Shown: positions 410 through 25,947 of the stretch, piece after piece
How the letters are laid out: every line of letters starts with the position of its first letter
Position numbering within the stretch: the first letter of the stretch is position 1
Source: an uncultured Bacteroidales bacterium
GTDB taxonomy: Bacteria > Bacteroidota > Bacteroidia > Bacteroidales > Bacteroidaceae
Length of the DNA stretch: 35,622 nt
Assembly (NCBI GenBank): GCA_902779315.1
Contig: CACZBC010000034.1
Location: 1-35,622 of the forward strand
Reading direction: 5' to 3'
The notes under the pieces: generated by a model
Databases searched by the model: none
Told to the model about the DNA's origin: nothing
Seen by the model: the letters and a program-made list of their open reading frames with translations, nothing else
Made by a program: the position numbers and the translations under genes

Positions 410-554
410 AATTACACGCGCGTCGATGCCCAACGTCACACTAGTTAAACGCAAACGTCACACTAGTAAATTGCAAACATCACACTAGATGATCGCAAAC
501 ATCACACTAGATGATCGCAAACGTGGCACTATACAATCGCATTCGTCACACGCG
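410..554 (-). repeat. 22-bp-phased intergenic repeat array 1 (six units)
   Basis: Units with the core CGTCACACTA (reverse complement TAGTGTGACG) begin at 434, 456, 478, 500, 522 and 544, so every step is exactly 22 bp. The rest of each unit is a variable segment around TTGCAAAC or TCGCAAAC. The unit nearest the gene (544) reads CGTCACACGC instead of CGTCACACTA, and a similar ACACGCG end-like stretch lies at 414-420. The array ends about 10 nt beyond the stop codon of the minus-strand GH43 gene. Read in that gene's direction, the units are in the TAGTGTGACG orientation. The same family occurs at four other places in the window. Confidence 0.9.
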
Positions 555-564
555 AGGCGGCCGG

Positions 565-1632
565 CTAAAACTGCGGACGGTTGACAATCCAGCAGGGGTG
601 ATTGGTGGGGTTGCCCTTGTGGTCGACGAAGACGAGGCGGCCGTCGATGTCCTTCAGCTCCATCAGAATCATGGGACGGGGACGGTAATCGCCCCGACGT
701 GGGATGAGCCCTTCGCAATGTGAGTGCATGATCATGAACATGCGGCCTGCCCGGTCCGTGATGATCTCGCCGTTGTGGCCCGCTCCGTTCAGTATCGCGT
801 CGGGATTTTCGGAGGTGAGGACGGGTTCGGGCTCTGTCCAACCCGAGAAGAGATTCTTTGAGGTGCTGAGGCAAAGGGTGTACTCGTAGTTGTTGAAGTG
901 GTTCTTGGAGCAGTAGAAGTAGTACAGGCCTTTATATTTATAGATGTAGCCGCCCTCGTAGGCCGTCGTGATGTGGTGGGGTTCGCTCCCTTTCGCATAG
1001 CTCAGGCCGTCCTTCGCCAGTTCGCGGATATAGTTGCCCTTGCTGTTCACATCGCCGTAGACGAGGTAGTGGCGGCCGTCGTCGTCGAGGAAATACTGCC
1101 CGTCTTGAGGTGTGGGATGCTCTGGAGTGCCGATGTTCAGGGTGTTGGCATAGCGGAAAGGACTGTCTATGTCATCGACAACGAGAACTACCTGCCGGTC
1201 GTTCTCCATCGAGACGAAGAGGGTCAGGTAGACGACGAGTTTGCCCTGGATGAGAGCCGGACTTGGCGCCCAGAAGTTGATGTTCTGCTTCCCGGCCCCA
1301 GTCTTCATGGGGTCGAGCTTGCCGTCGCCAAAGGGGTCGTGAGGGTTCGGACCTGGGAACATGTCGCGGTAGAAGGTCCAATTGCAGAGGTCGCGGCTGC
1401 GATAGATCTTGATGGGGAAGCCCGTCTTGAAGCAGTAGAACCATTCGCCAATCTGCACGACGGAGGGGTCCGGGCAGTCGAAATCGGTGACGGGATTCAT
1501 GGCGACGGTCTTGTCGGGCATGTCTTTCCTGAGTTCGAACAGGGCTTTGTCGGCGATTGCGCGCTCTGTCTGAGCCTTGGCGGCCATGCTTCCCAAGCAT
1601 GCCAGAAGCATAAGAAAGTAGAGTCTTTTCAT
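565..1632 (-). CDS. Secreted glycoside hydrolase, family 43-like
   Basis: A 355-aa protein with a signal peptide (residues 1 to about 20, ending AAKAQ). The body reads as a five-bladed beta-propeller of the GH43 clan. CPDPSVV (Asp55) fits the catalytic base, PQDGQYF with DDDGRHYLVYG (around Asp177) fits the pKa-modulating aspartate, and YEGGYIY (Glu226) fits the general acid. The family cleaves arabinose- or xylose-containing and related side chains by inversion; the exact substrate cannot be read from sequence. The expected site is the periplasm or cell surface. No susC/susD pair lies nearby, so this is not an ordinary polysaccharide utilisation locus. It is divergent from the DUF3298 lipoprotein gene, with about 128 bp between starts, and a 22-bp repeat array follows its stop codon. 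Confidence 0.82.
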   Translation of the reverse strand: MKRLYFLMLLACLGSMAAKAQTERAIADKALFELRKDMPDKTVAMNPVTDFDCPDPSVVQIGEWFYCFKTGFPIKIYRSRDLCNWTFYRDMFPGPNPHDPFGDGKLDPMKTGAGKQNINFWAPSPALIQGKLVVYLTLFVSMENDRQVVLVVDDIDSPFRYANTLNIGTPEHPTPQDGQYFLDDDGRHYLVYGDVNSKGNYIRELAKDGLSYAKGSEPHHITTAYEGGYIYKYKGLYYFYCSKNHFNNYEYTLCLSTSKNLFSGWTEPEPVLTSENPDAILNGAGHNGEIITDRAGRMFMIMHSHCEGLIPRRGDYRPRPMILMELKDIDGRLVFVDHKGNPTNHPCWIVNRPQF

Positions 1633-1666
1633 GTCTGTTTTACTTTCAGCTAATCATCTTTTGCTG

Positions 1667-1674
1667 CAAATATA
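1667..1674 (-). promoter_or_regulatory. Bacteroidetes -7 box for the GH43 gene
   Basis: On the minus strand this reads TATATTTG, matching TAnnTTTG. It lies about 34 nt upstream of the ATG at 1632. I found no matching TTG -33 element at the usual spacing, so this is a partial match. Confidence 0.5.
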
Positions 1675-1693
1675 CGAAAAAAGGATGTAATTC

Positions 1694-1724
1694 TTGCCAT
1701 TCTAGGAAAAATATGCTAATTTTG
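1694..1724 (+). promoter_or_regulatory. Bacteroidetes promoter for the DUF3298 lipoprotein gene
   Basis: TTG at 1694-1696, a 20-nt spacer, then TAATTTTG at 1717-1724, matching the TTG/TAnnTTTG consensus. The predicted transcription start (about 1730) lies downstream of an alternative in-frame ATG at 1713. This supports the start at 1761. Confidence 0.7.
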
Positions 1725-1760
1725 CCTGCAAATAAAACAACTAAACAACCGAACGACAAA

Positions 1761-2525
1761 ATGAAAAAACTTCTTTTCCCCCTTTCCTTAGCAGTCTTCT
1801 TCTGCGCTTGCGAAGACTGGAAAACCACCGAAACGACTCAGGCAGAACCCTCTTGGGGAAAAGCCTCGCTCTGCATCGAAAAACCCGTTGCCGAAGGCGC
1901 GGAGGAATGTTACCACATCGAATTCAACCTCGACACCTTGGACGGCGAGAGCGAATTGGCAAAGAACCTCTCGCAAGTCCTTCGCGACAGCGTGATCTAC
2001 ACAGGCGATTTCGCCACCATCCAGGAAGCCATGCAGGCTTATGCCGACAGCACCGAGGCGGAATGGAAAGTCGAGCTGGCCGAAAGGTATGCGGACGAGC
2101 CCGAATACAGGGACATCCTGCAGTACTACTATAATGTGGAAGGCACTCCCGTAGAGAACGGCAACGACAGCATCCTCTCCTATCAGACAAACATCTCGTG
2201 CTACCTCGGAGGTGCTCACGGCAGCTATGTGGTGTCGTATTTCAACTTCGACAAGAAGACAGGCAAGCTGCTCAGCATCAGAGACTTCGTCCCAGTCGAA
2301 AAGGAGAAACCTGTGCTGGAAGCGATGGAGCAGCAGCTCTGCAAGGATTGGGAAGCAAAAGACCTGGCCGACCTGCAGGAGAAAACCGGCATCACGATGC
2401 TGGGCGACCTCTACCTGACGAACAATTTCCTAGTAAAGGACGACAGCCTGCTCTTCCTCTTTAACCAATACGAGATTGCACCCTACGCAGCAGGGCTGAT
2501 AAGCGTAACCGTAGAAAAGCCGTAA
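1761..2525 (+). CDS. DUF3298 (RsiV-like) lipoprotein
   Basis: A 254-aa protein. It begins MKKLLFPLSLAVFFCACEDW, which gives a lipobox-like FCAC with Cys17 as the probable lipidated residue, followed by acidic residues. The second half matches the DUF3298 fold also found in RsiV-type anti-sigma factors: GGAHGSYVVSYFNFDKKTG and near the end NQYEIAPYAAG. Bacteroidales carry many stand-alone lipoproteins of this type and their function is not established; in RsiV a related domain binds lysozyme. No sigma factor gene is adjacent, so an anti-sigma role is not supported. I chose ATG 1761 because the predicted promoter lies downstream of the earlier in-frame ATG. Its stop codon is only 2 bp from that of the convergent clostripain-like gene. 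Confidence 0.8.
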   Translation: MKKLLFPLSLAVFFCACEDWKTTETTQAEPSWGKASLCIEKPVAEGAEECYHIEFNLDTLDGESELAKNLSQVLRDSVIYTGDFATIQEAMQAYADSTEAEWKVELAERYADEPEYRDILQYYYNVEGTPVENGNDSILSYQTNISCYLGGAHGSYVVSYFNFDKKTGKLLSIRDFVPVEKEKPVLEAMEQQLCKDWEAKDLADLQEKTGITMLGDLYLTNNFLVKDDSLLFLFNQYEIAPYAAGLISVTVEKP

Positions 2526-2527
2526 AG

Positions 2528-3697
2528 TTACCAGCCCGTCCGGGCCCAGCCCGCAGCTTCGTACCACGAAGTCTTTTGGAACTCGGCGTTCCATCCGTAG
2601 TCGTCGTACACATTCAGGGGTACAAACATGGAGACGCCCCCATAGCATTCGGGGTCTTCCAGGAACGGATGGGCGCACAAACCGTTGCTGAACCATTTGT
2701 TCGTGTAAGAGTGCGTCCGTAGCGGGACAGCCTTGTCGAAATACTCCATCCAGACGGAATAGTCCTCCTGGGAAAGCAGACGGCACATCGTAGTCCGCAT
2801 GTCGAAATAGTTCGTGTACTTGTCCAGGAAATTACAATACACCTGAAAACCCTCGGCGGAGGGTTGGCTGCGCTCCATATAGAAAGGCGTCAAGAACTGC
2901 CCTGTCACTCGAGCAAGGTCGTCAAGCTCGTTGCAGTCGATGCAGGAAAGCAATACGCCGGGGTAGGTGCTGTTGAGGGGATAGGCGCTGTCATAGCCCT
3001 CGACAATACCCTCGGCATCTCCCTTGCAGAGCGACTCCACGATTCTATGATAAGGCGCTCCAGGAGCGGGAATCTCTGCAGGCGAGCTTATCATCCAACG
3101 CGTAACGTCGCGCAACTCGTAGGCAACCTCGATGCATTGCATGAAGCAAGCGTCGAAGAAGAGGTAGTCGAACTTGGGGAAATGGGCAAGCACGTTGCGG
3201 AGCTCGGGAATCTCCATCTCACCTTCTCCCTGCATCGTGCCGTGTGTTTCGTCCTTTCCGAAGGTGTCCCGCCGTGGAGTCCAACCTGTAGCGTGCGACC
3301 AAAGCGTGATGCCGTAGTGACGGGCAGGGAAAAAGTGCTCTATCTGCTGAAGCGCGTTGAGCATCACATCGGCATTGGTGCTGCACAACTCCTCTTGATA
3401 TTGCTTCCATAGCCGCAACCCCTTCTTCGCAGACAATTCGTAAATGGCAGGCTTGTGCAGTCTGTCGTCGAGATAGATGATGAAGTTGACATCCTCGGGA
3501 ATCGTGCCTTTGCTCCTCACCATTTCCGTCGTGTCCTCCCGGACCTGGAGGGTGAGCGAGTTGTCGGCTGCCATGTAAACGATGACCGTGCGTTCCGCTT
3601 CAGCTCGAGGTTGTTCTTCAGGAGGCGCAGGGTACTCATGGCATCCCGTCAAGAGGAGTCCTATATATATAATAATGTATAGGTCGAAACGTTTCAT
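2528..3697 (-). CDS. Clostripain-family (C11) cysteine peptidase lipoprotein
   Basis: A 389-aa protein that starts MKRFDLYIIIYIGLLLTGC; LLTGC is a lipobox with Cys19 lipidated. ERTVIVYMAADNSL is the typical first strand of Bacteroidetes C11 peptidases. The catalytic dyad is visible as His135 in ITLWSHATGW and Cys184 in YLFFDACFM. C11 enzymes cleave after basic residues and are usually self-processed, secreted proteases. The lipobox suggests a surface or periplasmic location. An in-frame ATG 13 codons upstream (3736) lies beyond the predicted promoter and is rejected. The promoter sits so close to 3697 that the mRNA may be leaderless. Confidence 0.85.
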   Translation of the reverse strand: MKRFDLYIIIYIGLLLTGCHEYPAPPEEQPRAEAERTVIVYMAADNSLTLQVREDTTEMVRSKGTIPEDVNFIIYLDDRLHKPAIYELSAKKGLRLWKQYQEELCSTNADVMLNALQQIEHFFPARHYGITLWSHATGWTPRRDTFGKDETHGTMQGEGEMEIPELRNVLAHFPKFDYLFFDACFMQCIEVAYELRDVTRWMISSPAEIPAPGAPYHRIVESLCKGDAEGIVEGYDSAYPLNSTYPGVLLSCIDCNELDDLARVTGQFLTPFYMERSQPSAEGFQVYCNFLDKYTNYFDMRTTMCRLLSQEDYSVWMEYFDKAVPLRTHSYTNKWFSNGLCAHPFLEDPECYGGVSMFVPLNVYDDYGWNAEFQKTSWYEAAGWARTGW

Positions 3698-3701
3698 GCT
3701 G

Positions 3702-3731
3702 CAAAGGTACGAAGAAAATCTTAAATCGCAA
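3702..3731 (-). promoter_or_regulatory. Promoter abutting the clostripain start codon
   Basis: On the minus strand, TTG (3731-3729), a 19-nt spacer, then TACCTTTG (3709-3702). Only four bases separate the -7 box from the ATG at 3697, so transcription would begin at or within the start codon. Confidence 0.7.
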
Positions 3732-3768
3732 TACAATAAGCAGGCATTTCTTTCCGTTATTATAAAGT

Positions 3769-4926
3769 ATGCAATGGATAAACAGAATACGTCAGGTTAA
3801 GATAATTTTGGTTGTCTTGGCTGTTGTGCTCAGCGTGGCGTCGCTCGTTGTCTCTAATTTCCTTGTCCGAGACCTCAAGGTGGAAGAGCAGAGGAAAATG
3901 GAGATTTGGGCGGAAGCGATGCGTTCGCTGAATAACGCAGACGAGACGACAGACCTTACGCTAGTCTGGACGGTGCTCAACTCGAACAACACCATTCCCG
4001 TCGTCGTGCTCGACAGCGGCGGACGAGTGCAGGACTATCGCAACATGGAGGTTTCTGCAGCCTCTCCCGCTTCGCTCGACTCCTTGGTCTTGCATAGCGC
4101 ACAATCCATGAAACAGGCGGGAAGAGCTATCCGCATCAACTTCGGCGACAACGATTACATGGAGATCTGCTATGCCGACAGTCTCATCCTGACGCGTCTG
4201 GCATGGTGGCCCTACGTGCAACTTGGCGTTGTGCTCATCTTTGTTGTCGTCGCCATCTTTGCGCTGCTGAGCAGTAAAAGGGCAGAGCAGAACAAGGTGT
4301 GGGTCGGCTTGAGCAAAGAGACGGCTCACCAACTCGGCACGCCCATCAGCAGCCTCATGGCTTGGCACGAAGTCCTTCAGGAGAACTACCCCGACGACGA
4401 ACTGCTTCCCGAAATGGGAAAGGACATCAAGCGTCTGCAACGTATCGCAGAGAGATTCAGCAAGATAGGCTCTCAACCGGAACCTAAACCCGAGAACCTC
4501 AACGAAGTGCTTAATAATGTGATGCAATACATAAGCCGTCGCACCAGCAACCGCATCACGATGAACTGCAACTTGCCTGCAGAACCCCTCATAGCCCCCG
4601 TCAGCGCTCCTTTGTTCGAATGGGTGATAGAGAACCTCTGCAAGAACGCCATCGATGCGATGGAAGGCAAGGGCAGCATCACGCTGACGGCAAAAGAAGA
4701 GCCGGATTGCATCAGCGTAGAAGTAAGCGACACTGGTAAAGGCATCCCCAAGAAACGTTTCAGCTCCGTCTTCACTCCAGGCTATACGACTAAAGAGCGT
4801 GGATGGGGACTTGGACTTTCGCTTGCCAAACGTATCGTCGAAGAGTATCACAACGGACGCATTTTCGTGAAGAATTCCGAGATTGGAAAGGGCACAACCT
4901 TCCGTGTTGAACTCAAAAAGCACTAA
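3769..4926 (+). CDS. Orphan membrane sensor histidine kinase
   Basis: A 385-aa protein. Two membrane segments (about residues 11-33 and 148-168) enclose a small periplasmic sensor of about 115 residues. The cytoplasmic part has the phospho-acceptor H-box at His187 (KETAHQLGTPISSL). It is followed by a HATPase domain with an N-box (IENLCKNAIDAM, Asn293), G1 (DTGKGIP) and G2 (GWGLGLSLAKR). No HAMP domain is evident and no response regulator gene is adjacent, so its partner is encoded elsewhere. It precedes the DUF177-rpmF-fabH-era block in the same direction, but a promoter-like element separates them. The signal sensed is unknown. Confidence 0.9.
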   Translation: MQWINRIRQVKIILVVLAVVLSVASLVVSNFLVRDLKVEEQRKMEIWAEAMRSLNNADETTDLTLVWTVLNSNNTIPVVVLDSGGRVQDYRNMEVSAASPASLDSLVLHSAQSMKQAGRAIRINFGDNDYMEICYADSLILTRLAWWPYVQLGVVLIFVVVAIFALLSSKRAEQNKVWVGLSKETAHQLGTPISSLMAWHEVLQENYPDDELLPEMGKDIKRLQRIAERFSKIGSQPEPKPENLNEVLNNVMQYISRRTSNRITMNCNLPAEPLIAPVSAPLFEWVIENLCKNAIDAMEGKGSITLTAKEEPDCISVEVSDTGKGIPKKRFSSVFTPGYTTKERGWGLGLSLAKRIVEEYHNGRIFVKNSEIGKGTTFRVELKKH

Positions 4927-4950
4927 TTCGGCATTTTTTTCGTGCCAAAG

Positions 4951-4983
4951 TTGCACAAGTAATTGATTTTTTTAGTAATTTTG
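4951..4983 (+). promoter_or_regulatory. Possible promoter of the DUF177-rpmF operon
   Basis: TAATTTTG at 4976-4983 matches the -7 box. The closest usable -33 TTG (4951-4953) gives a rather long 22-nt spacer. Only seven bases lie between the -7 box and the ATG at 4991, so a leaderless or near-leaderless transcript is possible. Confidence 0.45.
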
Positions 4984-4990
4984 CAGCCCG

Positions 4991-5503
4991 ATGGGAAAAC
5001 TGGACGGTTATAAAGTTGATTTGAAAGGTCTTTCCTCTGATACTGTGTCGTACCATTGGAAGGTAGACAATGACTTCTTCTCCGCCGTTCAGGGACCGGA
5101 AATCAAGCAGGGTCTGCTCGATGTTGCATTACGGGTGAAACAGACATCTGGCACCTTTGAGTTGGAGTTCCAGCTGAAGGGCGAGGTGGAAGTGACGTGC
5201 GACCGCTGCCTCGAACCCATGTCCCAACCCATCGACGCCTTGTGCACGTTGCGTGTCAAGATGGGCGATGACTTTGCCGACGACGGCGATGTGGTGACGG
5301 TTCCGGAAAGGGAAGGCATCATCGACGTAGCTTGGAACATCTATGAGTTTGCAGCTCTGCAGATTCCTATAAGGCATGTTCATCCCGACGGGAAGTGTCC
5401 CGAACGCATCACCCATGCATTGGCAAACGAGACGTCCGAAGAGGCAACACCCAACGACCCACGCTGGGACGAACTGAAAAAAATATTACATAACAATAAA
5501 TAG
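4991..5503 (+). CDS. DUF177 (YceD-type) large-subunit rRNA accumulation protein
   Basis: A 170-aa protein of the DUF177/YceD family. This family is genetically linked to bL32 in most bacteria and in E. coli and plants is needed for normal 23S rRNA accumulation. The family mark VTCDRCLEPM is present, followed by an acidic stretch and HPDGKCPE. It lies 9 nt upstream of rpmF, the usual arrangement, so co-transcription with rpmF is likely. Confidence 0.88.
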   Translation: MGKLDGYKVDLKGLSSDTVSYHWKVDNDFFSAVQGPEIKQGLLDVALRVKQTSGTFELEFQLKGEVEVTCDRCLEPMSQPIDALCTLRVKMGDDFADDGDVVTVPEREGIIDVAWNIYEFAALQIPIRHVHPDGKCPERITHALANETSEEATPNDPRWDELKKILHNNK

Positions 5504-5512
5504 TATAAGAAA

Positions 5513-5692
5513 ATGGCACATCCAAAGAGAAGACAGTCCAAAACAAGGACCCTTAAGAGAAGAACTCACGACAAGGCTGTAGCTCCCGCATTGGCAGTTT
5601 GTCCCAACTGCGGCGAGTTCCACATTTATCACACGGTGTGTCCTGCTTGCGGTTACTATCGCGGCAAGGTCGCAATCGAAAAGGAAGCTTAA
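5513..5692 (+). CDS. rpmF: 50S ribosomal protein bL32
   Basis: A 59-aa protein beginning MAHPKRRQSKTRTLKRRTHD, the highly conserved basic start of bL32. Two cysteine pairs follow (CPNCGEF and CPACGYYRG), so this is the zinc-binding form. Its length is normal. It is a structural protein of the 50S subunit. It sits between DUF177 and fabH, the conserved order that couples ribosome and fatty acid synthesis genes. A strong hairpin follows its stop codon. Confidence 0.97.
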   Translation: MAHPKRRQSKTRTLKRRTHDKAVAPALAVCPNCGEFHIYHTVCPACGYYRGKVAIEKEA

Positions 5693-5707
5693 GACTAAAC
5701 GTGTAAG

Positions 5708-5743
5708 GATTGGAGATTAGGGATTCGCCTCTAATCTCCAATC
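5708..5743 (+). repeat. Perfect 13-bp hairpin between rpmF and fabH
   Basis: The left arm GATTGGAGATTAG (5708-5720) and right arm CTAATCTCCAATC (5731-5743) are perfectly complementary around a 10-nt loop. No T-run follows, so it is not a classical terminator. The left arm plus loop is built of near-heptamers (GGATTGG, AGATTAG, GGATTCG). Possible roles are an RNA processing site or partial attenuator setting the rpmF to fabH ratio, or a small repeat element. Confidence 0.75.
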
Positions 5744-5749
5744 ACAATT

Positions 5750-6841: not shown

Positions 6842-7715
6842 ATCAGGTTTCGTTAATATCGTAGGCAACCCGAATGTCGGGAAGTCAACCCTCATGAATC
6901 TTTTGGTGGGGGAACGTATTTCTATTGCCACTTTCAAGGCTCAGACAACTCGTCATCGCATTATGGGCATCCTGAATACGCCTGAGATGCAGATCTGTTT
7001 TAGCGATACGCCAGGTGTTCTGAAGCCTAATTACAAGTTGCAGGAGCAGATGCTCCAGTTCAGCGAAAGTGCCTTGCAGGATGCCGATGTGCTGCTTTAT
7101 GTCACAGATATGGTGGAGACACCCGACAAGAACAGCGACTTCCTGGAGAAAGTCAAGAAGCAGCAAGCGCCGGTTCTAGTCCTTATTAATAAAATAGACC
7201 TTAGCGATCAGAAGGCTTTGACTGAGAAGGTCGAGCTTTGGCACGAGGCTTTGCCCGAAGCGGAAATCATTCCGATCAGTGCTTTACATCGCTTCAATGT
7301 CGATAATGTCCTGAAACGCATACAGGAACTCTTGCCTGAGAGCCCTGCCTACTTTGATAAAGACCAATGGACGGACAAGCCTGCCCGTTTCTTCGTGACT
7401 GAAATCATCCGCGAAAAGATACTCCTCTATTACGACAAGGAAATCCCCTATAGTGTGGAGGTCGTTGTCGAGCAGTTCAAGGAGACTGACCGGAATATCC
7501 GAATCAATGCAGTTATCTTTGTCGAGAGAGAGTCCCAGAAGGGGATTATTATCGGCCATCAAGGTGTCGCTTTGAAGCGTGTTTCAACCGAAGCCCGCAA
7601 GAGCTTGGAGAAGTTTTTCGGCAAGAGTATCTATCTTGAGGTCTTCGTGAAGGTCGATAAGGACTGGCGTCAGAGTGATCGCGCCATGAAAGCATACGGA
7701 TATAATCTTGATTGA
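6834..7715 (+). CDS. era: GTPase Era
   Basis: A 293-aa ribosome-assembly GTPase that binds the 3' end of 16S rRNA. G1 is GNPNVGKST (residues 11-19), G3 is DTPG (58-61) and G4 is NKID (119-122). The C-terminal KH domain contains the IIGHQG loop. Length and motifs are complete. The first eight bases overlap fabH. In many Bacteroidetes der follows era; here purN follows instead. Confidence 0.96.
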   Translation: MHKSGFVNIVGNPNVGKSTLMNLLVGERISIATFKAQTTRHRIMGILNTPEMQICFSDTPGVLKPNYKLQEQMLQFSESALQDADVLLYVTDMVETPDKNSDFLEKVKKQQAPVLVLINKIDLSDQKALTEKVELWHEALPEAEIIPISALHRFNVDNVLKRIQELLPESPAYFDKDQWTDKPARFFVTEIIREKILLYYDKEIPYSVEVVVEQFKETDRNIRINAVIFVERESQKGIIIGHQGVALKRVSTEARKSLEKFFGKSIYLEVFVKVDKDWRQSDRAMKAYGYNLD

Positions 7716-7735
7716 AGCTTATGAAAGACAGTTCG

Positions 7736-8308
7736 ATGAAAGTCAATATCGCTATCTTTGTGTCGGGAAGTGGCACGAATTGCGAGAATCTGATACGCTA
7801 TTTTGAGCATTCGGATGTCGTGAAGTGTGCTTTGGTGGTAAGCAATAAACCTGATGCTTATGCTTTGGTCAGGGCTGAACGGCTGGGTGTTCCTTCGGCT
7901 GTGGTTACGAAGGAAATGCTGAACGATTCCGAGAGGATGCTTCCTTTGCTGCAGAACTATGGCATTGGCTTTATCGTTTTGGCTGGTTTCTTGCCGCTTA
8001 TACCTTCTTTCCTCATAGATGCTTTCCCTCGGAAAATCATCAATCTTCACCCTGCTTTGCTGCCTAAATTTGGTGGAAAAGGTATGTGGGGACATCATGT
8101 TCATGAGGCTGTGAAAGCTGCAGGCGAGACGGAAACGGGAATGACCGTGCACTACGTAACTCCTGTCTGCGATTCTGGAGAGATTATCGCCCAGTATCGT
8201 GTTGCCATTTCTCCTGAAGATTCGGTTGATGACATTGCCGAGAAAGAGCATCAACTGGAGATGGAATATTTCCCCAAGGTAGTGGAGTCTGTAATCGTGG
8301 CACGTTAA
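7736..8308 (+). CDS. purN: Phosphoribosylglycinamide formyltransferase
   Basis: Transfers a formyl group from 10-formyl-THF to GAR in purine synthesis. It starts MKVNIAIFVSGSGTN, the phosphate-binding start of PurN. NLHPALLPKFGG supplies the catalytic Asn and His, and VCDSGEIIAQ supplies the conserved Asp. It is 190 aa from ATG 7736, normal for the family. An ATG at 7721 or a TTG at 7712 overlapping era would add 5 or 8 residues that do not resemble the family start. Its stop codon lies inside the first, degenerate unit of a 22-bp repeat array. Confidence 0.92.
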   Translation: MKVNIAIFVSGSGTNCENLIRYFEHSDVVKCALVVSNKPDAYALVRAERLGVPSAVVTKEMLNDSERMLPLLQNYGIGFIVLAGFLPLIPSFLIDAFPRKIINLHPALLPKFGGKGMWGHHVHEAVKAAGETETGMTVHYVTPVCDSGEIIAQYRVAISPEDSVDDIAEKEHQLEMEYFPKVVESVIVAR

Positions 8309-8392
8309 GATTGCAAACGTATAGTGTGACGATTGCAAACATATAGTGTTACAATCGCCAACGTAACGTGTTACGATATCAATCGTAACACG
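8300..8392 (+). repeat. 22-bp-phased intergenic repeat array 2 (four units)
   Basis: Units begin at 8300 (degenerate, overlapping the purN stop codon), 8322 (TAGTGTGACG), 8344 (TAGTGTTACA) and 8366 (ACGTGTTACG), all 22 bp apart. An inverted copy CGTAACACG at 8384-8392 closes the array and forms a dyad with the 8366 unit. It lies between purN and the promoter of the first M60 gene. Confidence 0.85.
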
Positions 8393-8457
8393 CTTTGTTT
8401 TTTCTCACCACATTTCTCTCCTTTTGTCGCTTTTAGCTTTCTTTTTCTCTTTTTCTC

Positions 8458-11892: not shown

Positions 11893-11936
11893 GGACAGGA
11901 AGTCCTGAAACATAGGCAGTGATGTAGGCAAACATC

Positions 11937-12016
11937 ACGTGTGACGATTGCAATTTACTAGTGTGACGTTTGCGATTTACTAGTGTGACGATTGGGATTA
12001 TCACGTGTGACGTTTG
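11937..12016 (+). repeat. 22-bp-phased intergenic repeat array 3 (four units)
   Basis: Units begin at 11937 (ACGTGTGACG), 11959 and 11981 (both TAGTGTGACG) and 12003 (ACGTGTGACG). All steps are exactly 22 bp. Both end units carry ACGTG, both inner units TAGTG, so this is the clearest example of bounded array structure. It lies between the two M60 paralogs. Confidence 0.9.
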
Positions 12017-12061
12017 CCAACATCGCCAGTCAAGTTGGAAAGGTTCATTAAAGACTCTGTT

Positions 12062-18147: not shown

Positions 18148-18274
18148 AAAAGTTTTCCAAAACAAAATGTTAAGTTGTTGATATATAGCGACATGACTAT
18201 ACTTGGTCAAACGAAAAGTTTTCCAAAAAGGATATTTCTGCCTGAAAGTGTGTTGTTTCCGTTGGAAAACTTTT
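18148..18274. promoter_or_regulatory. Three copies of an AAAAGTTTTCCAA motif upstream of nrdDG
   Basis: AAAAGTTTTCCAAAA occurs identically at 18148-18162 and 18214-18228. An inverted copy of its first 13 bases lies at 18262-18274. All three are just upstream of the nrdDG promoter, in an otherwise AT-rich gap of about 520 bp (18032-18550). An operator for a regulator of anaerobic dNTP synthesis is possible. The local AT-richness weakens the case, but a 15-bp exact repeat is still unlikely by chance. Confidence 0.5.
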
Positions 18275-18351
18275 TGATTTTCTGGGCATGGAAGCGGGAA
18301 GTGTGTTGAAAGTTGGTAAAATTGCCGCGATTTATACTAAAAATATATATG

Positions 18352-18442
18352 GTATAGCGAGGCTTTTCAAGTTGAACGTTTAAGTGTTCAAATTTAGTCT
18401 CTTTGTGAGCACGAATATTGGGGGAGAAGGCACTTGCTATAC
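18352..18442. repeat. Long-range inverted repeat upstream of ddh
   Basis: GTATAGCGAG (18352-18361) and CTTGCTATAC (18433-18442) are complementary with one mismatch, about 70 bp apart. A second small dyad, TTGAAC and GTTCAA around 8 nt, lies between them at 18372-18391. Nothing else recognisable lies in this part of the gap. The role is unknown. Confidence 0.4.
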
Positions 18443-18480
18443 ATTCTTATCCTTTTTGCAATAAAAAGTGAACATTTTGT

Positions 18481-18510
18481 TTGTTATTTTGGCAAAAAGC
18501 TGTACCTTTG
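18481..18510 (+). promoter_or_regulatory. Promoter of ddh
   Basis: TTG at 18481-18483, a 19-nt spacer, then TACCTTTG at 18503-18510, forty bases before the ATG at 18551. Confidence 0.75.
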
Positions 18511-18550
18511 TCGTCGAAAACAGGATAAAAGTAACTAAAAGTTCATTAGT

Positions 18551-19450: not shown

Positions 19451-19552
19451 GGCTGGAGTTCCTTTCTGGAACGGCTTTCGAGATAAAGTGTGCGGCTCTT
19501 GAAGAAAGGGTCGCACACTTGTTTTTCAAACGACTCTGGTCAAGTTCCAAAA

Positions 19553-19674
19553 CGTCACACTAGTAAAAGCCAATCGTCACACTAGTAAAAGCCAAACGTC
19601 ACACTAGTAAAAGTCAAACGTAACACTATGCAATCGCAAACGTAACACTATATGTTTGCCTTCGTCGCACGTTA
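19553..19674 (-). repeat. 22-bp-phased intergenic repeat array 4 (six units)
   Basis: Units begin at 19553, 19575, 19597 (all CGTCACACTA), 19619 and 19641 (both CGTAACACTA) and 19663 (CGTCGCACGT). Every step is exactly 22 bp. The last unit has the CGTG-type end in reverse complement. It lies in the 469-bp gap between ddh and miaB. Unlike the other four arrays, its orientation is opposite to the upstream gene. The rest of this gap (19675-19855) shows nothing recognisable. Confidence 0.9.
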
Positions 19675-19855
19675 TCTTTTCAAACTTGATTAGGGACGTT
19701 TTTCAACAAGCCTGACCAAGTCTTCCAAATGGATTAGCCTCGTTTTTCGACTTTTTTGTGTGTTCTGAATGCCGTCTTTCACATTATTTAATTATAAAGG
19801 CAGTCGAAAAGCCACATTTTATTCGCTAAAAATCGCGTTTTTCGCAAAAATGTAT

Positions 19856-19863
19856 TATCTTTG
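19856..19863 (+). promoter_or_regulatory. -7 box for miaB
   Basis: TATCTTTG matches TAnnTTTG and lies 56 nt before the miaB ATG. No TTG is found at the right spacing, so the -33 element is weak or absent. Confidence 0.55.
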
Positions 19864-19919
19864 CCGCGAAAATGGGGGAGTATACACTATTCTTGAGCTA
19901 ATGCTCAAGCTGAACGAAG

Positions 19920-21230
19920 ATGAAAAAACTACTCATAGAAACATACGGATGCCAGATGAATGTGGCCGACAGCGAAGTCGTTGCCAGCGTGATGGGTATG
20001 GCCGGATACGAGGTTACAGAGAGTCAGGACGAGGCTGATGCCGTGTTCCTGAACACCTGTTCTGTGCGAGACAATGCCGAGCAGAAAATCCTCTCTCGCC
20101 TCGACTTCTACCATAGTTTGCAGAAGAAACTGGGCAGACGGATCATCGTCGGTGTGCTTGGCTGCATGGCAGAAAGGGTTCGCGAGGAACTGATCGAGGC
20201 TCATCATGCCGATCTCGTTGCAGGTCCTGACGCTTATCTCACTTTGCCCGACCTGATTGCCCAAGCCGAATGCGGACACAAGGCGATCAACGTAGAGCTC
20301 TCAACCACAGAGACTTATCGCGACATCGTGCCTCAGCGAATCTGCGGACCACACATCAGCGGTTTCGTCAGCATTATGCGAGGCTGCAACAACTTCTGCC
20401 ACTATTGCATCGTGCCCTATACTAGAGGTCGTGAACGCAGCCGGGATGTGGAAAGCATCCTGCGCGAATGTCGCGACTTGCGGGATCGAGGCTACAAAGA
20501 AGTCACCCTGTTGGGGCAGAATGTGAACTCCTACTTGAGCGAAGGAACGACTTTCCCGGAGCTCCTGCGCCTTGTAGCTCAGGAAGTTCCACAGATGAGA
20601 GTGCGTTTCACCACATCCCATCCAAAGGATATGAGCGACGAAACGCTTCAGGTTATTGCAGAAGAGCCGAACCTTTGCCACCACATACATCTGCCAGTTC
20701 AAAGCGGAAGTGACCGCATCCTGAAGCTCATGAACCGCAAGTACACGAGGGATTGGTACTTGGATCGCGTTTCAGCCATCCGTCGCATCCTTCCCGATTG
20801 TGCCATCACGACAGATATCTTTGTCGGTTATAGTGGTGAAACTGAGGAAGATCACCAGCAAAACCTCTCGCTCATGCAAGAGGTGGGTTACGACAGCGCC
20901 TTCATGTTCAAGTATAGCGAAAGGCCTGGAACTTATGCCAGCAAACACCTTCCAGACGATGTTCCCGAGGAAGTGAAGATCCGAAGGCTGAATGAAATCA
21001 TCGCCTTGCAGAACGAACTTTCGGCCCAAGCCAATCGGAAGTGCATCGGAAAGCAGTATGAAGTCCTCGTCGAAGGCGTGAGCAAACGCAGCAAAGACGA
21101 GCTCTTCGGCAGAACAGGGCAGAACAAAGTGGTCATCGTCCCTCGCGAAAACCTCAGAATAGGACAGACAGTGCCCGTCGTCATCACAGAAAGCAGCAGT
21201 GCTACGCTGAAAGGAAAAGTAATAGTTTAA
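19920..21230 (+). CDS. miaB: tRNA-2-methylthio-N6-dimethylallyladenosine synthase
   Basis: A 436-aa radical-SAM methylthiotransferase acting on i6A37 of tRNAs that read UNN codons. The N-terminal UPF0004 domain holds the three cysteines of the auxiliary cluster (GCQMN, NTCSVRDNAEQK, GCMAERV). The radical-SAM cluster is in GCNNFCHYCIVPYTRGRERS. A TRAM domain (about residues 370-436) ends the protein. All motifs are complete. It probably starts the operon that runs through ftsX to queA, with 9 nt to ftsX. Confidence 0.94.
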   Translation: MKKLLIETYGCQMNVADSEVVASVMGMAGYEVTESQDEADAVFLNTCSVRDNAEQKILSRLDFYHSLQKKLGRRIIVGVLGCMAERVREELIEAHHADLVAGPDAYLTLPDLIAQAECGHKAINVELSTTETYRDIVPQRICGPHISGFVSIMRGCNNFCHYCIVPYTRGRERSRDVESILRECRDLRDRGYKEVTLLGQNVNSYLSEGTTFPELLRLVAQEVPQMRVRFTTSHPKDMSDETLQVIAEEPNLCHHIHLPVQSGSDRILKLMNRKYTRDWYLDRVSAIRRILPDCAITTDIFVGYSGETEEDHQQNLSLMQEVGYDSAFMFKYSERPGTYASKHLPDDVPEEVKIRRLNEIIALQNELSAQANRKCIGKQYEVLVEGVSKRSKDELFGRTGQNKVVIVPRENLRIGQTVPVVITESSSATLKGKVIV

Positions 21231-21239
21231 ACAGGAAAT

Positions 21240-22115
21240 ATGACAAACAAACGCAGAAGGAAAAACAAGATAGCGTGGGCAATGCAGGCTTTCACCAGTA
21301 CTGTCAGCGTCACTCTGCTGCTCATCTTGATGGGCCTCATAGTGTTGCTCTCGCTCACAGCCAGGGTTGTAGCCGACAGTGTCAAGGAGAACCTGACCGT
21401 TACGGTTGTGCTCGAAGACGATGTCCAAACGCCAGATGCACAACATTTGTGCGACTCGTTGAACAGGATGTACTACGTCAGCAGCATCGACTACATCAGT
21501 CGCGAGCAAGCTTTGCAGGAACAAATCGAGAGCATGGGCATCGACCCGACTGATTTTCTTGGCGCAAATCCGTTCTCCATCTCAATGGAGGTGAGGGTTA
21601 AGCCAGAGTTCTCCTCGAATGACAGCCTGATGTGGATCAGCAACGAATTCCGCAAATCGGAACTTGTGGCGGATGTGATGTATCAGAAGGACTTGGTGGA
21701 GAGCATGAACAAGAACCTTCATCGTGCCTCCTACTTCTTGCTTGCCATTGCTCTTCTGCTGGTCATCATTTCCCTGAGCCTTATCAACAATACTGTCCGA
21801 CTGAGTGTGTTCAGCCATCGTTTCGTGCTCCACACCATGAAGCTGGTGGGTGCGAAGTGGAGTTTCATTCGTCGTCCGTTCCTTGTTCGAGGCTTTTGGA
21901 TTGGCTTCATCTCAGCTCTCATTGCCGATGCAGCCATTTTGGGTGGCATCTATTGGGCATCGAGATACGACAGCAGCATCCTGAACTATGTCACTCAGGA
22001 GAACATGATCATCACAGCCGTCTCGGTTCTCGTCATCGGACTCCTGCTCACAATCGTCTGCACCTACTTCTCTGTGACGCATTGCCTGAAGATGCGTGGC
22101 TCGGAACTGTATTAG
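21240..22115 (+). CDS. ftsX: Cell division protein FtsX
   Basis: A 291-aa permease-like partner of the ATPase FtsE, which controls septal peptidoglycan hydrolases. TM1 (about residues 23-45) is followed by an extracytoplasmic domain containing TVTVVLEDDVQTPDAQ. Three further TM segments (from about 160) include the FtsX-family stretch LSVFSHRFVLHTMKLVGAKWSFIRRPF. ftsE is not in this window. The order ftsX, DUF3098, uppP, truB, queA is conserved in Bacteroidetes. Confidence 0.9.
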   Translation: MTNKRRRKNKIAWAMQAFTSTVSVTLLLILMGLIVLLSLTARVVADSVKENLTVTVVLEDDVQTPDAQHLCDSLNRMYYVSSIDYISREQALQEQIESMGIDPTDFLGANPFSISMEVRVKPEFSSNDSLMWISNEFRKSELVADVMYQKDLVESMNKNLHRASYFLLAIALLLVIISLSLINNTVRLSVFSHRFVLHTMKLVGAKWSFIRRPFLVRGFWIGFISALIADAAILGGIYWASRYDSSILNYVTQENMIITAVSVLVIGLLLTIVCTYFSVTHCLKMRGSELY

Positions 22116-22144
22116 AAAAGAAAAATGATTAAATAGTGAAAAAT

Positions 22145-22372
22145 ATGGCATTTAGTAAAAAGAACTACATCCTGCTTGCCATCGGAATGGCAATCGTCAT
22201 TCTCGGTTTGGTGTTGATGTCTGGCGAAGGAAGTGCAGAAGGCTTCTTCAACGCAGACATTTTCAGTGCTCGTCGCATCAAAGTGGCACCTTTGGTGAGC
22301 CTTTTCGGCTTCATCTTCATCATGATCGCCATCATGTACAAGCCCAAAACGCGTAAAGTGGAAGATAGATGA
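22145..22372 (+). CDS. DUF3098 small membrane protein
   Basis: A 75-aa protein with two predicted membrane segments (about residues 7-24 and 50-68), separated by a short loop with [16 protein letters not shown], typical of DUF3098. It is found between ftsX and uppP in many Bacteroidetes; its function is unknown. I chose ATG 22145 over an in-frame GTG three codons earlier. Its stop overlaps the uppP start as ATGA. Confidence 0.82.
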
Positions 22373-23193
22373 ACGAACTGCAAGCACTCATTCTGGGCCT
22401 TGTCCAAGGCCTCACGGAATACCTTCCCGTCAGCAGTAGCGGGCATTTGGAGATAGGCAAGATGCTTTTGGGCCTCGATCCGGAACAGGGCGGCCTGACT
22501 TTCGACATTGCAGTTCACGTGGCAACTGTGCTCGCAACCATCGTCATATTGTGGCGCGAGATCATCTGGATTGTGCAAGGTCTGCTGAAGTTCAAGTGGA
22601 ACGATGAGGCCCGTTATGCCTTTGCCATTCTCGTCAGCATGATTCCTGTTGCAATCGTGGGCTTCTTCCTGAAGGACAGCATCGAGGCGCTCTATGCCGA
22701 TGAACATGCCAGGACGCTTGTTGTGGGCTGTTGTCTGATTGTGACTGCCGTGCTGCTCACCTTGACACACTTCTACAAACCACAGGAAAAGGAAGAGATT
22801 TCGCCCATTCATGCCTTCGTGATTGGTATTGCGCAAGCCATCGCGGTCCTGCCAGGCTTGAGTCGAAGCGGCTCAACCATCGCGACAGGTCTGCTCTTGG
22901 GCAACAATAAGCAGAAACTTGCGCAGTTCTCTTTCCTCATGGTCATTCCGCCTATTTTGGGCGAGGCGCTGCTCGATTTCAAGCACATCGTTGCCCCCAG
23001 CGCGGAATATCTGGCAGAGCATGGCGCTTCGACGTCAATTCCTACGACATCCTTGCTTGTAGGTTTCGTGGCAGCTTTCGTGTCAGGATGCTTCGCCTGC
23101 AAGTGGATGATAGCGCTCGTGAAGAAATGTAAACTCATATACTTCGGCATCTATTGCGCCATAGCAGGCATTTTGGTGCTGATTCTGGGATGA
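22369..23193 (+). CDS. uppP: Undecaprenyl-diphosphatase
   Basis: A 274-aa polytopic membrane enzyme (BacA/UppP family) that dephosphorylates undecaprenyl diphosphate to recycle the lipid carrier for peptidoglycan and glycans; overproduction gives bacitracin resistance. Both signature motifs are present: [15 protein letters not shown] and [14 protein letters not shown]. It starts within the stop of the DUF3098 gene and ends 4 nt before truB. Confidence 0.95.
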
Positions 23194-23197
23194 TAAA

Positions 23198-23908
23198 ATG
23201 GATTTCATCGAGGGAGAGATACTTTGTTTCGACAAGCCGTTGAACTGGACGAGCTTCAATCTTGTCGCCAAGATACGCAGTCAGCTGTGTCATCGTCTTG
23301 GCGTGAAGAAGCTCAAGGTGGGCCATGCAGGTACGCTCGACCCGTTGGCTACGGGTGTGATGGTCGTATGTACAGGCCGCGCCACAAAGCGCATCGACGA
23401 GCTCCAGGCACACGTCAAAGAGTATGTTGCCACGCTTCAGTTCGGAGCGACGACGCCTTGTTTCGACCTCGAGAAACCCATCGACAAGACCTATCCAACG
23501 AAACACATCACTGAGGCCCTCGTTCGGGAGGTTCTCGGCAAGTTCCTCGGTCGTATAGAACAGATTCCGCCAGCTTTCTCGGCCTGCAAGATAGACGGCA
23601 AACGCGCGTACGATCTTGCCCGAAAGGGTAGGGAGGTGGAGCTCAAGCCCAAGGTCTTGGTTATCGACGAGATTGAGCTACAAGACTTCAACGCCGAGAA
23701 GATGCAGGCCACCATTCGCGTCGTTTGCAGCAAAGGGACATACATCAGGGCTCTGGCTCGCGACATAGGGGAAGCTTTGAACAGTGGTGCTCACCTCATA
23801 GCTTTGCGCCGCACTCGTGTGGGAGACGTTCGAGTGGAGGATTGCATGCAGGTTGAGGACTTTCCCGAATGGCTCGGCAAACAAGAACTTCCCGTAATAA
23901 CGACATAA
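23198..23908 (+). CDS. truB: tRNA pseudouridine-55 synthase
   Basis: A 236-aa enzyme that makes pseudouridine 55 in the T-loop of tRNAs. The catalytic aspartate is in KVGHAGTLDPLATGVMVV, and the N-terminal DKPLNWTSF and the CSKGTYIRALARDIG motif are typical. The C-terminal PUA-like extension of some homologues is minimal here, as in other Bacteroidetes. Confidence 0.94.
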   Translation: MDFIEGEILCFDKPLNWTSFNLVAKIRSQLCHRLGVKKLKVGHAGTLDPLATGVMVVCTGRATKRIDELQAHVKEYVATLQFGATTPCFDLEKPIDKTYPTKHITEALVREVLGKFLGRIEQIPPAFSACKIDGKRAYDLARKGREVELKPKVLVIDEIELQDFNAEKMQATIRVVCSKGTYIRALARDIGEALNSGAHLIALRRTRVGDVRVEDCMQVEDFPEWLGKQELPVITT

Positions 23909-23928
23909 CACAATAACGATATAAGACA

Positions 23929-25011
23929 ATGAAACTACAGCAATTCAAGTACAAACTTCCCGATGATCGCATTGCTCTGGAACCCGCTCCTTTCCGCGAT
24001 GACTGCCGACTCATGGTCATCCACGCAAAGAGAGGTGTCATCTCGCATCATGAATCCTTCCGCGATGTGCTAAACTATTTCGACGAGAAGGACGTCTTTG
24101 TCTTCAACGACACAAAGGTCTTTCCCGCTCGCCTCTACGGAAACAAGGAGAAGACGGGTGCCAAGATTGAGGTCTTCCTGCTTCGCGAACTGAACAAGGA
24201 CATGCGTCTGTGGGATGTTCTGGTCGATCCGGCACGCAAGATCCGCATCGGCAACAAGCTCTATTTCGGCGAGGACGAGTCGATGGTGGCTGAGGTGATC
24301 GACAATACGACGAGTCGTGGCCGTACACTTCGCTTCCTCTTCGACGGCACTCACGACGAGTTCAAGCGTGCCCTCTTCGCACTCGGCGAAACACCCATTC
24401 CGAAGCAGATCATCAAGCGCGATGTCCTTCCCGAAGATGCTGAGAACTTCCAGACCATCTTTGCCGAGAAGGAAGGTGCTGTGACGGCTCCCACGGCGGG
24501 TCTTCACTTCTCCCCACAGCTCATGAAGATGATGGAGATAAAGGGCGTGGACTTCGCCTATGTCACCCTTCATTGTGGTCTCAGCAACTTCCGCGAAATC
24601 GATGTCGAGGATTTGACGAAGCACAAGATGGACAGCGAGGAGATGCATGCCGACCAGAAGGCTTGCGACATCATCAACAAGGCCCACGAAGAGGGACATA
24701 AGATTGTTGCCGTCGGAACCACAGTCCAAAGGGTGCTCGAGACTGCAGTCTCCACCGACGGCCAGCTCAAGGAATACCATGGATGGACGAATCGCTTCAT
24801 CTTCCCGCCTTACGACTTCCATTTGGCAGACGCCATGATAGCCAATTTCTATTTGCCTTACAGCACTATGTTGATGCTGACGTGTGCTTTCGGAGGTTAC
24901 GACCTCATCATGAAGGCCTACAAGGAAGCGCTCCGTTACAACGAGAACGACCCCGAAAAGCGCTATCGCTTCGGCCCTTACGGCGATGCCATGCTGATAC
25001 TGAACGATTAG
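23929..25011 (+). CDS. queA: S-adenosylmethionine:tRNA ribosyltransferase-isomerase
   Basis: A 360-aa enzyme that transfers ribose from SAM to preQ1 in tRNA, giving epoxyqueuosine. Family segments are clear: [42 protein letters not shown] and [12 protein letters not shown]. It lies in the conserved operon; in other Bacteroidetes folK commonly follows directly. Here a mobile-looking cassette begins 2 nt after the stop codon. Confidence 0.95.
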
Positions 25012-25013
25012 CA

Positions 25014-25045
25014 GTTCATAATTCATAGTTCATAATTCATAGTTA
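25014..25045 (+). repeat. Left inverted arm of the four-helix-bundle cassette
   Basis: A 32-bp arm made of alternating heptamers GTTCATA and ATTCATA (four units plus GTTA). It matches the reverse complement of 25400-25431 at 30 of 32 positions. It starts 2 nt after the queA stop. Confidence 0.88.
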
Positions 25046-25051
25046 AGGGTT

Positions 25052-25402
25052 GTGAAGGAGAGTATCATTAAGGATAAGAGCATGTCTTTTGCCATTCGAG
25101 TGGTGCGCTGCTACAAGTACTTGGTTGAAGAAAAACATGAATTTACCCTTTCCAAGCAGATGCTTCGTTGTGGAACAAGCATCGGAGCAAACATAAAGGA
25201 AGCCTTAAGAGGGCAAAGTCGTCCGGACTTCATAGCTAAGATGAACATCTCGTTGAAAGAAGCCAGTGAGTGTGAATACTGGATAGAACTGATGACGAAT
25301 ACAGAGTACTTACCCCAGGATTCAGCCCAATCATTGCTGGAAGATTGTCAGGAATTAATAAAAATCCTAACCTCAATCGTAAAGTCAGCGAACGGGAAAT
25401 AA
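25052..25402 (+). CDS. Four-helix-bundle protein, 23S rRNA intervening-sequence (IVP) type
   Basis: A 116-aa protein of the S23/IVP four-helix-bundle family (TIGR02436), related in fold to the Avd protein of diversity-generating retroelements. Family marks are IIKDKSMSFAIRVVRCYKYL, LSKQMLRCGTSIGANIKEAL and ECEYWIELM. It starts at GTG 25052, because the next ATG (25082) would remove the conserved first helix. Family members were first found inside intervening sequences of 23S rRNA genes. Here the gene is enclosed by 32-bp inverted arms between queA and folK. Its function is unproven; nucleic-acid binding is likely from Avd. Confidence 0.88.
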   Translation: MKESIIKDKSMSFAIRVVRCYKYLVEEKHEFTLSKQMLRCGTSIGANIKEALRGQSRPDFIAKMNISLKEASECEYWIELMTNTEYLPQDSAQSLLEDCQELIKILTSIVKSANGK

Positions 25403-25431
25403 CTATGAATTATGAATTATGAACTATGAAC
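25400..25431 (+). repeat. Right inverted arm of the four-helix-bundle cassette
   Basis: This is the complement of the left arm, with two mismatches. It begins within the stop codon of the four-helix-bundle gene and contains the folK start codon (25419) and its first four codons. In a shared transcript the two arms would pair and enclose the gene. Confidence 0.88.
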
Positions 25432-25850
25432 TCTACCTATCTTTAGGCTCCAATCTCGGTGACAGAGCCGAGATGTTGCGCCGTGCCATCATGCTCATTG
25501 GCGAGCGGATTGGTGCGGTGCAGCGCGTTTCGTCCTTCATCGAGACCGAACCTTGGGGCTTCGAAAGCGCAAATCCCTTCCTGAACGCAGCCGTGATGGT
25601 GCAGACCACACTCACTCCGCTCCAATGCCTGAGGAAAACCCAGCAGATAGAGCGTGAATTGGGACGCAAGACGAAGTCGAAAGACGGCATCTATCACGAC
25701 CGACCTATCGACATAGACCTGCTTCTGTATGGCGATCAGACCATTTCCACTCCCCGGCTCACCATCCCTCATCCACATATGTTCGAGCGCGACTTTGTCA
25801 TGATCCCGCTCAGGGAAATCCTGCCCTCCATAGGTGAGAGGAAAACTTAA
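25419..25850 (+). CDS. folK: 2-amino-4-hydroxy-6-hydroxymethyldihydropteridine pyrophosphokinase
   Basis: A 143-aa HPPK of folate synthesis that transfers pyrophosphate from ATP to the pterin. Motifs are complete: YLSLGSNLGDRAEM, ETEPWGF, NPFLNAAVMV and the metal-binding DRPIDIDLLLYG, followed by TIPHPHMFERDFVM. It starts at 25419; residues 1-4 (MNYE) come from the inverted arm. Its stop codon is directly followed by a 22-bp repeat array. Confidence 0.93.
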   Translation: MNYELYLSLGSNLGDRAEMLRRAIMLIGERIGAVQRVSSFIETEPWGFESANPFLNAAVMVQTTLTPLQCLRKTQQIERELGRKTKSKDGIYHDRPIDIDLLLYGDQTISTPRLTIPHPHMFERDFVMIPLREILPSIGERKT

Positions 25851-25947
25851 CGTGCCACGATTGCAAACATCTAGTGTGACGATGGCGATTAACTAGTGTG
25901 ACGATTGCAATTATCTAGTGTGACGATGGCCACTTAATCGTGCGACA
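25850..25947 (+). repeat. 22-bp-phased intergenic repeat array 5 (five units)
   Basis: Units begin at 25850 (ACGTGCCACG), 25872, 25894, 25916 (all TAGTGTGACG) and 25938 (TCGTGCGACA). Every step is exactly 22 bp. Both end units have CGTG instead of TAGTG. The first unit overlaps the last base of the folK stop codon. Confidence 0.92.

Follow-up and report, generated by a model that had tools for sequence, protein, structure and literature searches.

The closest known element to the repeats described here is BrickBuilt, a miniature inverted-repeat transposable element (MITE) of Porphyromonas gingivalis, which, in the available text of its source, consists of imperfect, spacerless, intergenic tandem units of 23 nt that are predicted to form long stem-loops and are bounded by inverted-repeat ends (PMC4596501). 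Elements of this type show 0-6% indels, number 19 in one genome, carry a leader and a tail of up to 285 and 318 nt, respectively, and have no reported BLASTn match outside the species in the same text (PMC4596501). The repeats in question were found in a 35,622-bp stretch of DNA (the window), which is contig 34 of the draft genome GCA_902779315.1 (2,825,570 bp, 107 contigs, 84% complete) from an uncultured Bacteroidales bacterium, and take the form of five arrays, situated in five gaps between genes and comprising 25 units joined by 20 steps, every one of which measures 22 bp. Like BrickBuilt as described, the arrays consist of intergenic, abutting and imperfect units of about two helical turns, with predicted stem-loops and perhaps inverted-repeat ends. 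Unlike BrickBuilt, they have a unit of 22 bp (166 of 168 steps in the wider survey below) rather than 23 nt, are dense (56 arrays in 0.43 Mb, compared with 19 copies), have short ends and are matched across relatives by many unrelated units. The statement, made in a preliminary description of the window, that no described family has this pattern was thus too strong in view of BrickBuilt.

Repetitive extragenic palindromic (REP) sequences, according to the text available, are palindromes of 20-40 bp that bear a GTAG or CGTC tag and form pairs in head-to-head or tail-to-tail orientation; they and the bacterial interspersed mosaic elements (BIMEs) are high in copy number, often species-specific and located mainly 3' of genes, in gaps whose flanking genes are unidirectional or convergent (PMC3733652). 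The present arrays are likewise palindromic, high-copy and, in their own genome, downstream of genes, but they run head-to-tail without inverted or alternating units and keep a constant period that is common to unrelated sequences. PINSR, an intergenic repeat of Prevotella intermedia with 177 and 184 copies and no known transposase, is defined by one 188-bp consensus that lacks terminal inverted repeats, and no 22-bp phase is described in the text available (PMC4755523); the arrays resemble it as a high-copy intergenic repeat. Plasmid iterons share the direct repeats at exactly 22 bp, but comprise three units in one place beside an initiator gene, whereas the arrays are dispersed through the chromosome. 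A CRISPR (clustered regularly interspaced short palindromic repeats) array is excluded, as the preliminary description had concluded, because the units abut without spacers. Among open-licence papers, at the level of titles and abstract openings, none was seen to describe 22-bp phased arrays for Bacteroidaceae, and the text passages of a survey of prokaryote satellites (PMC6749651) contain neither "22 bp" nor "Bacteroid".

The number, sites and uniform spacing of the units are confirmed as first described. When lags of 8-60 were scanned across the window, five lag-22 regions were returned that coincide with the five arrays, as well as three regions at the harmonic of 44. Lag-22 regions were absent from 100 of 100 dinucleotide shuffles, and a chance origin of the arrays is rejected on this basis. 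The same register extends through the genome, in which 573 pairs of cores are spaced by 22 bp (291 + 282, with at most 3 mismatches) and the reversed pattern gives none. The sample surveyed in detail consisted of the window and 20 further stretches (428,695 bp in total), searched on both strands with an oriented unit profile; orientation competition was used because the quasi-palindromic unit makes free iteration mix the strands. This survey found 56 arrays with 224 units, while the reversed-sequence control at an equal cut-off found no array in the same DNA. Arrays of four units are the commonest (21 arrays), followed by five (10), three (9), two (7), six and seven (3 each), one (2) and eight (1). 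In agreement with the claim of a fixed register with drifting sequence, 166 of the 168 steps are exactly 22 bp, the remaining two being 44 and 45. Although copies are many, the variable spacing and frequent location within genes that the preliminary description had named as contrary outcomes did not occur. The units, which contain GACG, abut head-to-tail on one strand, usually with 3-5 per element, and neighbouring units resemble each other more than they do units of other arrays (16.3 versus 13.7 of 22 positions). The core TAGTGTGACG, said to be present in each, holds for every array but not for every unit, the edge units being ACGTG.., GCGTG.. or weaker.

In the relatives, whose genomes and sampled stretches are designated below by G and L numbers, respectively, it is the period that recurs. 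When 400 kb of DNA from 16 further genomes of the genus was searched for tandem repeats, the commonest period of at least 15 bp was 22 bp (40 rows; next commonest 15 bp, 13 rows), with unrelated 22-bp units. Lag scans were made on non-coding DNA from genomes other than the window's own, low-complexity units being removed before counting. The pattern of three AGTGTGA cores imposes both core and period, and its match counts served only for choosing genomes; a control with the reversed motif is meaningless because AGTGTGA is its own reverse. The first genus sample, taken from genomes with matches to this pattern but mostly from stretches elsewhere, contained 33 lag-22 arrays in 11 of 16 genomes, only one of the 33 being a listed match, and the second, from 20 genomes lacking a match, contained 7 arrays in 3 genomes. 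At the family level, one genome per genus gave 4 arrays in 4 of 20 genomes (one a listed match), and match genomes together with others (G143) gave 12 arrays in 6 of 9 genomes (five at listed matches). Other families of the order are at background in a small sample, with 2 lag-22 arrays in 2 of 20 genomes and 2 regions each at lags 16, 21 and 23 as well. Pooled over these samples, the counts are 58 at lag 22, 29 at the harmonic 44, 13 at lag 21, 6 at lag 42, 3 at lag 23 and at most 5 at every other lag of 12-60. The enrichment lies in the family, presumptively Bacteroidaceae. Some of the regions in the secondary peak at lag 21 are perhaps true 21-bp arrays (e.g. G095 L063 10301-10374).

The 58 pooled arrays, from 23 genomes, fall into 42 sequence clusters at 16/22 cyclic identity, and the mean similarity between the 22 clusters of the first set is 10.20, compared with 10.28 for shuffled units, with a small excess at 14/22. 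The relatives thus have the number 22 in common but not the letters, although a faint common layout may exist in some families. One sequence family as the constant is excluded by the unrelated 22-bp units, and the core TAGTGTGACG, on which the preliminary description had relied, loses that role. A two-unit core pattern (at most 2 mismatches) was present in 3 genomes out of 61 in the genus, one of them the own genome. The reversed core GCAGTGTGAT, intended as a control, gave 14 matches spaced by 22 bp in G011, where the matches probably represent another unit family of similar kind. A scan of named genomes with GTGTGA again imposes core and period, and the listed matches outside Bacteroidota therefore say nothing on enrichment.

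The same combination of constant period and changing letters is seen at single gene gaps. Ten relatives were searched around arrays 2-5 and 20 stretches taken, in which 13 equivalent gaps were readable (two for array 2, six for array 3, five for array 4 and none for array 5). Lag 22 was the best of lags 10-40 in 10 of the 13, with 28-43 of 44 matches and a runner-up of at most 25. By eye, the gap of array 3 holds the window's unit family in G090 (4 units) and G092 (3 units), CCGCGTGCGGCG-type units in G052, CAACGCCCTATAGGGGAA-type units in G005 and a long hairpin in 22-bp register in G111, while that of array 4 holds the window's family in G090 and G092, several other 22-bp families in G071 and, in G052, a different 22-bp family followed by a T-run. 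The letters in G052, G005, G111 and G071 are unrelated to those of the window at equivalent gaps. Where the family is retained, length changes by whole units: relative to the window, array 3 differs by 0 bp in G090 and by 22 bp in G092, and array 4 by 22 and 44 bp, respectively, with no other alignment gap inside the arrays in the four comparisons; G092 also lacks 44 more columns in the flank to the right of array 4. Within the array, identity is lower than in both flanks in three of the four comparisons (e.g. 116/140 versus 355/380 and 371/390) and lies between the flanks in the fourth (85/96, versus 349/380 and 328/390), and three units of G090 have identical changes in common. As far as these alignments go, this looks like turnover of whole units with homogenisation and little constraint on the letters.

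Beyond period, many arrays have in common a quasi-palindromy of the whole element, a feature missing from the preliminary description. When an ungapped dyad score was compared with that of arrays whose 22 columns had been permuted (cut-off p<0.05), the dyad was significant in 40 of the 58 arrays of relatives (genus samples, 20/33 and 5/7; family samples, 3/4 and 11/12; order sample, 1/2) and in 17 of 45 arrays of the own genome. Palindromy at the level of the unit is moderate in the other genomes (8/33). The own-genome elements terminate in short sequences that resemble inverted repeats, AAACGnC ... GnCGTTT; outside the units, a weak consensus can be followed for about 30 bp to the left (AAACG..), where the profile stopped, and for about 13 bp to the right (..CGTTT), with nothing clear in the further 40 bp on that side, the two ends being imperfect inverted copies. 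The consensus of the 21 four-unit elements pairs Watson-Crick at 84 of 130 positions about one centre, and array 3 is predicted to fold into a single long hairpin (z -4.6). For the 47 own arrays of at least three units, the mean z relative to dinucleotide shuffles is -1.95 for the sense and -2.18 for the antisense strand, and -1.07 relative to column-permuted arrays. Counts of G-T and A-C made without orienting the arrays carry no information on strand. On the TAGTGTG strand of the oriented arrays, G-U pairs are more frequent than A-C mismatches (0.570 versus 0.495, Watson-Crick pairs included), and this strand folds lower in 37 of the 47, with about equal z-scores for the two strands; its orientation to genes is mixed, and transcription of the TAGTGTG strand is therefore not favoured.

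The location of the own-genome arrays was assessed with a simple codon-based gene caller written for the analysis. Forty-nine of the 56 arrays are clear of called genes, five overlap them by 1-23 bases, one by 68 of 132 bases and one wholly, which upholds the claim of an intergenic location in the main, the window's arrays 2 and 5 qualifying it by their contact with purN and folK (Table 1). The midpoint falls in a gap between called genes for 49 of the 56, namely 32 co-directional, 14 convergent and only 3 divergent gaps; the divergent number compares with 14.7 expected from random placement of all 56 (about 13 when scaled to 49), and none of 2000 placements gave a number as low as 3. Within co-directional gaps, the arrays lie at a median of 33 bp from the upstream 3' end and 222 bp from the next start and are nearer the former in 28 of 32, with mixed orientation relative to the gene (19 same, 13 opposite); in other genomes, 17 of 25 arrays in co-directional gaps are likewise closer to the 3' end upstream. 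Terminator-like sites occur in 13 of 40 arrays, versus 9% in shuffled sequences.

The reading that we favour, at a probability of roughly 0.55, is that each array is a copy of an intergenic element of hairpin type, non-coding and built of tandem repeats, that conserves its geometry and spreads in the manner of REPs or MITEs. The 22-bp step with unrelated sequence in the relatives argues against a single sequence-specific binding protein and in favour of a structural or length rule; the interpretation given in the preliminary description is partly supported overall. The conserved property would be geometric, namely pseudo-dyads at intervals of 11 bp, or about one helical turn, in a pattern that recurs after two turns, and the register itself would be what is read or built. 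A structure-reading factor, for example an architectural DNA protein or an enzyme that recognises hairpins or double-stranded RNA, would be indifferent to the letters but intolerant of an altered register, and might act on hairpin DNA, hairpin RNA or duplex DNA. Hairpin RNA is A-form, with 11 bp per turn. The elements would spread and become homogenised within a genome as REP/MITE-like selfish repeats, would survive best directly after genes and may serve there as 3'-end or bidirectional terminator-like structures.

Several observations weigh against this hairpin-element reading. The pattern-free genus genomes (2.5-20 kb each) had lag-22 regions in only 3 of 20 cases, and 3 of the 13 readable gaps in relatives lack an array, two of them being short gaps in G089 (23 and 49 bp) and the third that of array 2 in G005, which by eye holds an ordinary hairpin and T-run (the window array there also ends in a hairpin and T-run). 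Divergent gaps are not depleted in other genomes (10 arrays, 9.0 expected), and their avoidance is limited to the own genome. Terminator-like sites are similarly common after genes without arrays (18/66, versus 10% in shuffled sequences), which makes a terminator role possible but not distinctive. A single own-genome unit is palindromic beyond chance in only 5 of 51 consensus units (p<0.05), and compensatory pairing within own elements is not clear: when arms of one element were compared with arms of different elements, the arm-swap P values were 0.14 for Watson-Crick pairs, 0.13 with G-U and 0.03 with A-C. In addition, moving the axis by +/-22 bp gives pairing equal to that at the true position; on the arm-swap and axis-shift results, the hairpin form in the own genome is therefore a property of the family consensus rather than demonstrably of each copy. 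Finally, no mobilising enzyme was identified, no insertion-sequence search having been made, and no target-site duplication or empty site was demonstrated for the arrays.

Among the alternatives, the best-surviving one, although we regard it as rather unlikely, is a frozen accident, in which one ancient 22-bp element spread across the family, unequal exchange has since held the length while substitutions erased the letters, and the number 22 has no function. The gain and loss of whole units, the changes shared by three G090 units, the greater likeness of neighbouring units and a CACG..TTTGC-like layout that is common to some families (by eye) would all follow from such a history, but similarity between the 22 clusters equals that of shuffled sequences, save for the small upper tail at 14/22, and neutral arrays should gather 1-bp indels, yet nearly all own-genome steps have remained at 22.

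Less likely still are iteron-like direct repeats, each 22-bp unit being bound on one face of the DNA by a sequence-specific protein that co-evolves with the unit in each species. Exact two-turn spacing without fixed sequence and length changes by whole units are compatible with such repeats, and real triple direct repeats at 22 bp do lie beside a replication initiator gene (PF10134) in Rhodobacterales contigs. However, single genomes such as G005 and G071 hold several unrelated 22-bp unit families, unrelated arrays occupy the equivalent gap in relatives, and a direct-repeat binder has no need of whole-element dyads. As to the Rhodobacterales-type sites themselves, three GGTGTGTGAAATGACGAA-like direct repeats with an exact 22-bp step lie at L122:3745-3813, close to an open reading frame (ORF) that matches replication initiator protein A (PF10134, 1.6e-85), and similar sites occur in L074, L081, L088, L113, L124, L131, L134, L149 and L152; a similar ORF was seen by eye at 10 of the 11 loci inspected. 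These repeats, mostly from Rhodobacterales, are likely plasmid iterons. A Myxococcales contig (L095:2218-2353) has a 22-bp array with a palindromic, GTTCACACGCCTGAAC-like unit, which was found by a 22-bp pattern and hence gives no measure of enrichment.

Ordinary REP/BIME elements mobilised by a REP-associated tyrosine (Y1) transposase (RAYT) are improbable: hundreds of copies, the niche 3' of genes in the own genome, species-specific sequence, palindromy and a weak PF01797 match in the array-rich G111 fit them, but the units are head-to-tail, an arrangement of REP dimers that is absent or rare in most genomes in the available text of the source (PMC3733652), PF01797 has no match in the own genome (84% complete) and is found in 62 of 139 genus genomes that do not include the array-rich G090 and G092, and only one of four RAYT loci examined has a lag-22 region within 3.3 kb. 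That locus, in G071, was found at a looser cut-off and appears unremarkable given the density of arrays in this genome. Spread driven by RAYT is not supported.

The coordinates of the window's arrays and associated features are given in Table 1. Array 3 lies between two M60/BspA-like genes. Array 4 has a diaminopimelate-dehydrogenase-like gene on one side and a radical-SAM/TRAM (MiaB-like) gene on the other and is antisense to both. Just before array 4 (19487-19526), a terminator-like hairpin with a stem, AGTGTGCG, close to the array core was seen by eye, with similar sequence in G090 and G092. No match to Rfam 15 at gathering score was obtained in the window. Of the eight genes beside the arrays, seven match metabolic, RNA-modification or surface families and one (26514-28298) has no match; a replication initiator was not found among the eight. 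Two viral contigs that share 99.99% identity across 9.7 kb, and hence represent one phage, with a terminase match, carry one TAGTGTGACG array (L276:12844-12942, L277:7664-7762) that fills a 90-bp gap between the end of an ORF and a radical-SAM gene, and the window's array family therefore occurs on a phage too. Elsewhere in the window, a perfect 19-bp tandem duplication (33092-33129) lies at the end of a BspA-type leucine-rich ORF (32436-33134), where a second ORF (33121-33555) starts, and the gene at this position may be split between two frames.

Table 1. Positions of the 22-bp arrays and associated features in the window.
Feature	Position	Strand	Description
Array 1	400..553	-	six clear 22-bp units (422-553) and a degenerate unit (400-421); 11 bp past the 3' end of a GH43 gene (565-1632, -)
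Array 2	8300..8387	+	four 22-bp units, the first 9 bases within the purN 3' end (7712-8308, +)
Intrinsic-terminator-like site	8367..8403	+	perfect 11-bp inverted repeat (8367-8377 / 8382-8392), formed mostly by the last unit of array 2, then T-run
Array 3	11914..12030	+	four 22-bp units (11937-12024) within whole-element hairpin
Array 4	19541..19672	-	six 22-bp units
Array 4 element end	19527..19546	+	CAAACGAC..CAAGTT; imperfect inverted copy of 19683-19701 (by eye)
Array 4 element, opposite end	19683..19701	+	AACTTG..GGGACGTTT
Array 5	25850..25947	+	four 22-bp units and a degenerate fifth, starting at the final base of the stop codon of folK (HPPK)

A bolder extension of the hairpin-element reading, which we put forward tentatively and at well short of even odds, is a sequence-blind 22-bp ruler in Bacteroidaceae, that is, a putative enzyme or architectural protein that counts two helical turns and casts unrelated sequences into one lattice. 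Such a ruler might, with the same reserve, build, copy or maintain intergenic hairpin arrays across species and at equivalent gene gaps. For specialists, the surprise would be the sequence-free 22-bp rule: repeats ordinarily share sequence, whereas the relatives have length and shape in common and differ in their letters, even at the equivalent gene gap. The question of what counts 22 base pairs thereby becomes open to testing. Were a protein or RNA enzyme to enforce the register, the arrays would represent a new structural code located at the ends of genes in a major family of gut bacteria; if there is no enforcing factor, they would offer a clean natural experiment on the maintenance of a period in tandem DNA subject to drift. 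Under either reading, array-bearing gaps merit annotation in the draft genomes of the family.

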